Shown here piece after piece: positions 22,928-28,690 of a DNA stretch of 33,353 nucleotides. Under the pieces are notes generated by a model that saw only the letters and a list, made by a program, of their open reading frames with translations, did no database searches and was not told the DNA's origin. Origin of the DNA: Candidatus Giovannonibacteria bacterium RIFCSPHIGHO2_02_FULL_45_13. Lineage in GTDB: Bacteria > Patescibacteriota > Minisyncoccia > UBA11713 > 2-01-FULL-45-33. The stretch lies in NCBI GenBank assembly GCA_001778635.1, contig MFHO01000010.1, forward strand, positions 33,418 through 66,770. The letters run 5' to 3'. The position numbers and the translations under genes were made by a program. Every line of letters starts with the position of its first letter. Within the stretch, counting starts at the first letter, position 1.

Positions 22928-23585
22928 GCCTCCAGGCCTCAATTTTTTTATGGTCGCCGGAAAGCAAAACTTTCGGGACACGATACTTTTTATTAAATAT
23001 CTCCGGGCGAGTATATGAAGGGACACCGACTCCGTAACGTTTTTCCTCAAGCGACTCTCCTGTGCCTAAAACGCCCAGAATGTGTCTGGAAACGGCGTCA
23101 ACAATAACCATAGCCGGCAATTCCCCGCCGGTTAGGACATAATGACCGATTGACAAATCCGAAATCCGAAATCCCAAATCCAAAACGACTTTTTTAATTC
23201 GTTCATCAACGCCTTCGTAGTGCCCGCAGATCATTATAATGCGCTTATATTTTTTGGCAAAATTTGCCGCCATTTTTGAATTAAATTGTTTTCCGGAAGC
23301 GGAGAGAAGAACGATTAAGACGTCGGACGTCTTTGACTTAGACGTCCGACGTCTAAGTTTTAAAATTGACTCTAGCGCCTTCGCAATCGGCTCAATCTTC
23401 AGAACCATCCCGGGTCCTCCGCCATACGGTTTATCGTCCACCTTCTTATGCTTATCGCGAGAAAATTTTCTCAAATCCCAAATTTTAATTTCTACAAGTT
23501 TCTTTTTCTGCGCACGCTTAATTATGGACTCATTAAAATAGCCGTGGGAAACCTCTGGAAAGATGGTAAGAATATCAAACCGCAT
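22881..23585 (-). CDS. trmD: tRNA (guanine37-N1)-methyltransferase TrmD
   Basis: MRFDILTIFPE, KPYGGGPGMVLKIEPI, MICGHYEGVDERI, SIGHYVLTGGELPAMVIVDAVSR. Confidence 0.95.
   Translation of the reverse strand: MRFDILTIFPEVSHGYFNESIIKRAQKKKLVEIKIWDLRKFSRDKHKKVDDKPYGGGPGMVLKIEPIAKALESILKLRRRTSKSKTSDVLIVLLSASGKQFNSKMAANFAKKYKRIIMICGHYEGVDERIKKVVLDLGFRISDLSIGHYVLTGGELPAMVIVDAVSRHILGVLGTGESLEEKRYGVGVPSYTRPEIFNKKYRVPKVLLSGDHKKIEAWRLKKARRFRDNYRRQK
23155..23182. repeat. 4x7-bp tandem repeat inside trmD
   Basis: AAATCCG AAATCCG AAATCCC AAATCCA; encodes the DLGFRISDL segment. Confidence 0.85.
23317..23358. repeat. Inverted palindrome doublet inside trmD
   Basis: AAGACGTC-G-GACGTCTT (23317-23333) and ACTTAGACGTC-C-GACGTCTAAGT (23336-23358); encodes LRRRTSKSKTSDV. 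Confidence 0.9.
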
Positions 23586-27277: not shown

Positions 27278-27959
27278 TTGTATCTGTAATTAACGGCACG
27301 AAGGCAAAGCCGGAGTGCTCAATAGTATCAAATCCATGCGCCATATTGACGGTGGCGGTTTTATTTTTTTTAATAAACCCACACACCAAACAATTTGGTG
27401 TGTGGGTAAACTCAAAAATGCTGTGGCCTATCGGGGCTACAATTTTGCCGCCTGTTTTTAATTGGTTTTTCCAAGCTTCCGGCACTGTTTCTCCAGCCGC
27501 TGCGGCAATAATCTTATCAAACCCTCCAATCTTTTTGGCAATTTCCGGAAGACCCAAAGTGCCGTCTTGGCAGAAAAACTTTACATTCCTGGAAACTAAG
27601 TTTCCACTTGGAAACTTAGTTTCCAAGTTGGCTTTCCCCCACTCGCACAACTTAGGCACCCGCTCAATCGCATAGACATTGGCTCCGCAATACACCAAAA
27701 GCGCCGTCTGCCATCCGGAGCCGTAGCCAATTTCCATAATGTTGTCGCCGGGCATAGGATCTAAAAGTTCCAGCATAAACGCCACCGTCCACGGTTGTGA
27801 AATCGTCTGCCCTTCGCCGATTGAAAGCGGCTCGTCAACATAGGCATAATCCTCAAATTCTTTTGGCACGAAATTTTTCCTCTCCACCGCTCGAAATGCC
27901 TCAATCAACCTCGGATTTTTCAACACGCCTTTTTTGATTAAATCGTCTGTTAAAGCCAT
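27264..27959 (-). CDS. pcm: Protein-L-isoaspartate O-methyltransferase
   Basis: EPLSIGEGQTISQPWTVAFMLELLDPMPGDNIMEIGYGSGWQTALL. Confidence 0.93.
   Translation of the reverse strand: MALTDDLIKKGVLKNPRLIEAFRAVERKNFVPKEFEDYAYVDEPLSIGEGQTISQPWTVAFMLELLDPMPGDNIMEIGYGSGWQTALLVYCGANVYAIERVPKLCEWGKANLETKFPSGNLVSRNVKFFCQDGTLGLPEIAKKIGGFDKIIAAAAGETVPEAWKNQLKTGGKIVAPIGHSIFEFTHTPNCLVCGFIKKNKTATVNMAHGFDTIEHSGFAFVPLITDTNGRK
27377..27407. repeat. Perfect hairpin inside pcm
   Basis: ACCCACACACCAAA-CAA-TTTGGTGTGTGGGT, 14-bp perfect stem; encodes THTPNCLVCG. Confidence 0.9.
27590..27628. repeat. Palindrome doublet inside pcm
   Basis: TGGAAACT-A-AGTTTCCA (27590-27606) and ACTTGGAAACT-T-AGTTTCCAAGT (27606-27628); encodes NLETKFPSGNLVS. 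Confidence 0.9.
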
Positions 27960-27992: not shown

Positions 27993-28015
27993 TGTCCGAA
28001 ACTTAGTTTCGGTCA
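27993..28015. repeat. RAYT-associated palindrome, copy 1 (supplies RAYT stop codon)
   Basis: TGTCCGAAACTTAGTTTCGGTCA; 17-nt palindrome at 27996-28012. Confidence 0.9.
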
Positions 28016-28653
28016 TCTAATAATAAGTAGTCGTCATTTCTGGCAGTTTCAATAAAACGCCCCACCTCTTTTTTATCAAAATCAAAATAATTGAGCAGGA
28101 AATCTGTCTTCAATAATTTCCCCCATCTGTTTTCACTTATATAATCCTGGAGACTGGACCAAGGATATTTATGCTCCCGTCTTTTCCAACCTTTGATATC
28201 TTTGGGATTAAGATGCGCGTACGCCAGTGCTCGCAACAAATAATTATCTCCGTTTAAATATTTGGCATCAAAAGTTCTTTCAAAAACATGCCCGCGTCTT
28301 TCATACTTCAAATTAAAATACTTTGCATAGCTAACAAGCAGCTTATGCATAAACAAGGAAATGTTGCCATCTTTTTTTTCGCGCAAAATCAAATGAAAGT
28401 GATTCGGCATAAAACAAAAACCGATTATATCTACAAGCGGCTTGCCTATATCCACCCTTCCATCTCTAATGTCCGAAACTAAGTTTCGGTCATAGAACCG
28501 ATCTAGATGTGCAATGTCGCGTTTTCCATTAGCCACAAATAATGTAGTTAAAAATCGTTTGTAGTCGCGGTCAGTACTAAACAAAGCCATATCGCCAATC
28601 ACGTGAGAATAAACGTGATAATATTCTCCTTCCGTAAAAGCGCACTTACGCAT
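28003..28653 (-). CDS. REP-associated tyrosine transposase-like protein (Y1_Tnp / RAYT)
   Basis: YYHVYSHVIGDMALFSTDRDYKRFL, HUH-type motif CFMPNHFHLILREK, FERTFDAKYL. Confidence 0.9.
   Translation of the reverse strand: MRKCAFTEGEYYHVYSHVIGDMALFSTDRDYKRFLTTLFVANGKRDIAHLDRFYDRNLVSDIRDGRVDIGKPLVDIIGFCFMPNHFHLILREKKDGNISLFMHKLLVSYAKYFNLKYERRGHVFERTFDAKYLNGDNYLLRALAYAHLNPKDIKGWKRREHKYPWSSLQDYISENRWGKLLKTDFLLNYFDFDKKEVGRFIETARNDDYLLLDDRN
28470..28492. repeat. RAYT-associated palindrome, copy 2 (inside the RAYT ORF)
   Basis: TGTCCGAAACTAAGTTTCGGTCA; encodes DRNLVSD in frame. Confidence 0.9.
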
Positions 28654-28667
28654 AATACCACCATTAT

Positions 28668-28690
28668 TGTCCGAAACTTAGTTTCGGTCA
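28668..28690. repeat. RAYT-associated palindrome, copy 3 (upstream of RAYT start)
   Basis: TGTCCGAAACTTAGTTTCGGTCA, 15 nt upstream of the RAYT start codon. Confidence 0.9.

Follow-up and report, generated by a model that had tools for sequence, protein, structure and literature searches.

The RAYT gene and its palindromes

The window, i.e. the whole 33,353-nt stretch of DNA analysed here, contains a RAYT (REP-associated tyrosine transposase) gene on its minus strand at 28003–28653. The gene is a 216-aa ORF with the HUH motif H85-x-H87 and a probable catalytic tyrosine, Y145. Its product matches Pfam Y1_Tnp (PF01797) at 26.4 bits (cut-off 23), and H85 and H87 are invariant. So is Y145, which aligns with the YIYINP segment of the E. 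coli protein (a Y-x-x-x-N-P motif) and which we take, from knowledge of the family, to be catalytic. A PDB sequence search gave 0 matches, and the top Foldseek match of an AlphaFold2 model (pLDDT 83.5) was 4er8_A, the E. coli RAYT-REP complex (E 4.1e-05). A first-pass annotation of this DNA had read the gene as a RAYT with cognate palindromes, and these results agree with that reading.

The source genome (833 kb in 36 contigs), whose closest named relatives are Candidatus Giovannonibacteria, has eight Y1 loci, plus one weak fragment. None is a near-identical second copy of the window RAYT, as all the others have at most 57% identity to the window protein. The gene is thus single-copy, as domesticated RAYTs are, with no IS-like spread, and we do not place it in IS200/IS605, in which the whole element is present in several near-identical copies. 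The genome also has a second RAYT (L015), with the same architecture and an unrelated palindrome.

Three exact copies of the 23-mer TGTCCGAAACTWAGTTTCGGTCA are found at the stop codon, inside and upstream of the RAYT gene, just as first described, where shuffling gives an expectation of 0. Copy 1 (27993–28015) is the 3' flanking palindrome and supplies the stop codon TAA. Copy 2 (28470–28492) is translated: it encodes Y54–I62, with the core DRNLVSD at residues 55–61, and its centre lies 27 codons before the HUH motif, at a position which we call site A and which is ~200 nt from the 5' palindrome. Copy 3 (28668–28690) is that 5' flanking palindrome; its closeness to the start codon stands, with a spacing to the ATG of 14 nt in place of the 15 nt originally given. 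The reported alternation of the central base (T/A/T across the three copies, plus strand) is also correct. It needs no further explanation because the reading frame demands it: the centre of the internal copy is T on the coding strand (TTA, Leu), and an A there would make TAA, the stop codon given by copy 1.

The first-pass annotation had proposed a genome-wide search for the 23-mer, and it is indeed present elsewhere: there are two further exact copies (C8:20230 and C10:6658) and one with a single mismatch in rsmA (C32:15646). The core GAAACTWAGTTTC has 12 sites in the genome versus 0 for a reversed control, and its flanks divide it into two families, one cognate to the window RAYT (TGTCC..GGTCA/GGACA) and the other of the form ACTTGG..CCAAGT. 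The ACTTRG family has 28 sites, a set that overlaps the 12 core sites. Most sites away from RAYTs are within open frames of at least 150 codons. With such low numbers, mostly in open frames, these palindromes do not fit the classical definition of REPs as mostly extragenic and high copy.

Internal copies in other RAYTs

We surveyed 196 distinct RAYTs, nearly all from Patescibacteria, of which 188 have a flanking palindrome. Start codons were chosen by rule. For each gene, the best ungapped match of the coding sequence to the flanks was compared with 200 protein-preserving synonymous-codon shuffles, and matches with p≤0.015 and a score of at least 10 were considered significant. The internal match to the gene's own flanking palindrome was significant in 91 of the 188 RAYTs, a count of related and hence non-independent genes, not of events. 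Ungapped matching misses diverged copies (e.g. L023, L034, L037, L039 and L068 are near or below the threshold and have a recognisable or partial copy at site A). Exchanging flanks between genes reduced the count to 3/188. A chance origin of the palindrome copies is ruled out by this swapped-flank control, the synonymous-shuffle null, shuffling and the reversed control. An assembly artefact is unlikely, as the copies come from many independent genomes, including single-contig ones (L204 in G183 and L230 in G059).

Nearly all internal copies (90/91) are at two positions: 68 at site A (15–36 codons before the HUH motif) and 22 at site B (65–80 codons after it), windows which together make up 38 of ~204 codons. 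In the remaining 97 RAYTs, the best matches are non-significant and scattered along the gene. Site A lies between the first helix and the HUH strand, in a segment to which no part of the E. coli protein aligned, and site B starts ~10 residues after the tyrosine aligned with E. coli YIYINP. Several genes have copies at both sites with the same peptide (e.g. L061, L089, L094 and L124), and nearly every gene of the ACTTRG group has at least one of the two. At each site three frames are used, one of them dominant (50/69 at site A and 19/22 at site B), a sign that these loops have gained copies several times. In 76 of the 91 genes the internal copy is cognate to both flanks, the internal palindromes are all odd-length, and the copies show no preferred relative orientation. 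The centre of most 5' copies lies 20–42 nt before the start codon, most often at −26.

The first-pass annotation had regarded a copy embedded in the transposase's own coding sequence as an oddity. It is instead a recurrent feature of RAYTs of this class, found at two positions and evolving with the flanks. By the kinship labels of the genome search, an internal copy is present in 78 of 108 RAYTs (72%) in the class of the source genome and in 10 of 69 from other classes. The ~28% of the same class without one have intact flanks. The survey method detected no internal palindrome in three Clostridia relatives, nor in the E. coli rayT control, whose flanking REPs it also missed. A recent one-off insertion in the window gene is ruled out, as the site is present in both close and distant homologues. 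Related RAYTs with and without a copy have similar loop lengths, and a simple gain by fixed-length insertion is not visible.

One gene, L050, has its own palindrome at site A and the palindrome of another REP family (CCAACTTAGCGGTCCGACCGCTAAGTTGG) at site B (about codon HUH+70), which is a cross-insertion between RAYT systems.

Concerted change of internal and flanking copies

In the clade of the window RAYT, the internal segment aligns without gaps as D-[LR]-N-[LP]-[VI]-[WS]-[DG], and its DNA follows each gene's own palindrome. For example, L027 has GACCTAAATCCGATTTGGGGC internally and GACCCAAATCGGATTTGGGGC as its flank, and L028 has GACCTAAACCTGGTTTGGGAC and GACCTAAACCTGGTTTGGGTC. When each internal copy was compared both with its own flanks and with the flanks of the closest relative having a different REP, its own flanks matched better in 86 genes, worse in 4 and equally in 1. 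Pairwise alignments show identical arm and loop changes in every copy (L091/L040, L112/L123 and L098/L095). At site A, internal copies have 1.35 and 1.58 mismatches per 19 nt relative to the flanks, and at site B 0.32 and 0.68; the two flanks differ from each other by 1.22 (site A genes) and 0.68 (site B genes); overall, the difference between internal and flanking copies is not significant. The internal hairpins pair at 8.77 of 10 positions, versus 5.17 expected from synonymous codons, and pairing exceeds this synonymous null in 80/91 genes at p≤0.05.

Conservation of position, and of frame within a clade, is what one would expect if the peptide were kept for the sake of the enzyme, with the palindrome incidental. 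However, the peptide varies with the REP (DRNLVSD, DLNLVWD, DLNPIWG, QLGGLAAKL and FVRSRAFN), and the internal sequence tracks the gene's own flanks, so the peptide is not what is conserved. Homologues that keep DRNLVSD with other codons, which the first-pass annotation had named as evidence against its reading, were not seen: DLNLVWD, DLNPIWG and the others each follow their own REP. Conservation at the protein level is contradicted by the synonymous-shuffle null, which the matches exceed, by the comparison of own and relatives' flanks and by the pairing test, and we consider it extremely unlikely.

The internal palindrome is therefore a true cognate copy, found at two surface-loop positions, gained in different frames and changing together with the flanks.

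A different possible role for the peptide is that the loop translated from a REP helps the enzyme to recognise that same REP, in which case replacing all copies at once would re-specify the enzyme. Two observations favour this: closely related enzymes (69–74% identity outside the site) have changed to another REP in every copy simultaneously, and site B is close to the aligned tyrosine. However, different frames of similar palindromes give different peptides, and some RAYTs that lack an internal copy (L017 with its ACTTGGGTGTC family, L249 and L251) likewise have cognate REPs scattered through host genes. We therefore think self-encoded specificity of this kind very improbable. We are just as doubtful of its fullest form, in which the REP would be a self-matching cassette: the internal copy would encode the loop that tunes the enzyme to its REP, the enzyme would rewrite all copies, and enzyme and target specificity would switch in a single step.

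Palindromes in frame within host genes

Palindromes also occur in frame within other genes of the window. In pcm, two overlapping palindromes of a sister family (ACTTGGAAACTWAGTTTCCAAGT and a truncated neighbour, 27586–27630) are translated as NLETKFPSGNLVSR, and in relatives the corresponding loop is shorter, unrelated in its residues or occupied by another palindrome-like segment. In trmD, the palindrome ACTTAGACGTCCGACGTCTAAGT (23336–23358), which is the REP of the second RAYT (L015), is translated as LRRRTSK. By Pfam calls, the host genes with palindromes in their open frames include pcm, argS, lepA, trmD, rsmA, an MPG glycosylase, a prepilin peptidase, a family 1 glycosidase and a ROK kinase; where a host gene has no Pfam call, its name is our reading of the sequence. 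The first seven named are conserved genes with an in-frame palindromic insert of the kind known from Rickettsia palindromic elements (RPEs).

Comparison with relatives shows such loops in several states, and in trmD the REP at this place differs between genera. The trmD loop has the ACTTAGACGTC palindrome in genomes G000, G001 and G006 and is shorter in G004 and G005, and the trmD of G003 (L278) has two different ACTTGG-type REP palindromes side by side in one loop (ALGNPVTKSLGGRAAKL). The rsmA segment varies in sequence between relatives as the REPs of the window RAYT clade do: in G000 it is the window RAYT palindrome with one mismatch, and in G008 it resembles the REP of that genome's own RAYT (L026). 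Its length is constant in 6 of 7 alignable relatives. ACTTRG copies use two main reading frames in host genes and one in RAYTs.

Two side observations concern these genes. Orthologues of rsmA (L011 and L263–L268) have REP-like palindromes at one place, which vary between genera as RAYT REPs do with no change in length. The ACTTGGAAACTWAGTTTCCAAGT family and its near variants are dispersed in genes (L001, L005, L010, L012 and L246), and we found no RAYT in the genome with that palindrome, making it an orphan REP family.

Origin and maintenance of internal copies

The first-pass annotation had offered two possibilities for the embedded copy: autoregulation or self-insertion. We favour self-insertion as the origin, because copies occur in several frames and in two loops and because palindromes behave in the same way in host genes. 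More fully, we propose that RAYT-cognate REPs settle in frame in tolerant loops, chiefly the two within the RAYT itself, and are rewritten afterwards together with the flanking copies, an account to which we give an even chance of being right. REPs mobilised by RAYTs would land in coding DNA, and purifying selection would remove them except where a loop can accommodate about eight extra or altered residues. Because a single-strand transposase would act near its own gene, the two loops of the RAYT itself would be hit most, and such a cis preference would account for RAYT genes being hit far more often than others. Resident copies would later be overwritten by the currently active REP, via RAYT-driven REP-for-REP exchange or conversion, which would preserve length and frame and keep the copies alike. 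On this account the internal copy need not confer any benefit. A point against it is that we know of no RAYT in which REP exchange has been demonstrated.

Four observations also count against settling and rewriting. The deep retention of internal copies and their near-perfect agreement with the flanks could equally mean selection as a binding site. The constant length of the rsmA segment means that simple insertion is not seen there. ACTTRG copies in RAYTs are always read in a single frame, suggesting that few events, and not frequent new insertions, gave rise to them. Finally, the same-class RAYTs without a copy have intact flanks.

In the autoregulatory alternative, the internal and 5' hairpins would act as an operator, bound by the RAYT as ssDNA or mRNA and limiting its own synthesis or activity, with the copies coevolving as the enzyme's specificity drifts. 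The internal copies are kept as well as the flanks are, most 5' copies sit at the distances before the start codon given above, and the presence of A or B in nearly all ACTTRG genes suggests that the two sites are interchangeable. On the other side, a substantial minority of same-class RAYTs and most of those in other classes do without a copy yet have good flanks, the same palindromes occur in unrelated housekeeping genes (rsmA and trmD), and the copies have no orientation preference. We also know of no work establishing RNA binding by RAYTs. Autoregulation is possible, though we consider it unlikely.

The internal hairpin could alternatively be a functional third end, cleaved to release a piece consisting of the 5' REP, the N-terminal coding part and the internal REP, which would be self-limiting or a REPIN-like unit. 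By sequence, all copies would be equally good substrates, and in the window gene the distance from site A to the 5' copy would suit such a piece. However, genes with site B would give a very different piece, and the orientation of copies is random. There is, in our view, little chance that this explanation is correct.

Relation to known systems

REPs flanking RAYTs are established (Nunvar et al. 2010, PMC2817692), as is RAYT-REP coevolution (Corneloup et al. 2021, PMC8266576). The genes described here share with these RAYT/TnpAREP systems (REPtrons) a Y1 HUH enzyme encoded between two cognate palindromes, dispersed non-autonomous copies, a separate enzyme for each REP family and enzyme-REP coevolution. 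They differ in that the cognate palindrome is also within the coding sequence at two recurrent positions, dispersed copies are mostly in genes and number only tens per genome, and there is no GTAG tag. GTAG is a feature of classical REPs, as described in a paper on RAYT groups 2 and 3, while here the GTAG/CGTC tag is absent (GTAG is found at 4 of 596 hairpin feet examined). Window-type genes are thus RAYT-like with untagged REPs, and in this respect resemble TIRYTs.

REPs within other genes, and RPEs, are established in the main text of Di Nocera et al. 2013 (PMC3733652). The intragenic GTAG/CGTC REPs described there are likewise translated in frame in housekeeping genes, many of them for DNA/RNA metabolism, and their termini supply stop codons. 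That main text mentions no REPs within RAYT genes, no concerted evolution with flanks and no Patescibacteria, and its tag motifs are absent here. Its TIRYTs are also tyrosine transposase genes with flanking untagged (no GTAG) terminal inverted repeats; they differ in that an internal cognate copy is not described in the main text, and here each flank is a self-complementary hairpin. RPE-1, RPE-4 and RPE-6, as presented there, are palindromes of a small genome that lie in frame within essential genes, which is also the situation here. Here, each palindrome family matches a resident RAYT, except for the one orphan family. For RPEs, we know of no cognate transposase that has been assigned. We found no description of a REP within the coding sequence of the RAYT itself in the literature searched, which excluded preprints, supplements and most subscription journals.

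The genes described here bear on how RAYTs and REPs remain matched although each changes quickly. They provide a large natural series in which all copies near or inside the gene change together and one of them is constrained by frame, so that sequence comparison and a simple cleavage assay can tell homogenisation from selection. They also matter for annotation: palindromic repeats shape Patescibacteria proteins, and peptides such as QLGGLAAKL and NLEAGLPSG are translated repeat, not conserved protein.

Other intragenic repeats

Two further repeats were seen in these genomes. The C-terminal part of pcm (27366–27418) has an in-frame 25-nt inverted repeat (ACCCACACACCAAATTGTTTGGTGTGTGGGT core) in a stretch of ~18 residues (around THTPNCLVCGFIKKNKTATVN) that is missing from orthologues, and it is perhaps another intragenic palindromic element. 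The peptide PPAGG recurs in frame in unrelated proteins (L001, L255 and L269, with CCGCCAGCTGGCGG in L269), which suggests a further family of intragenic palindromes.
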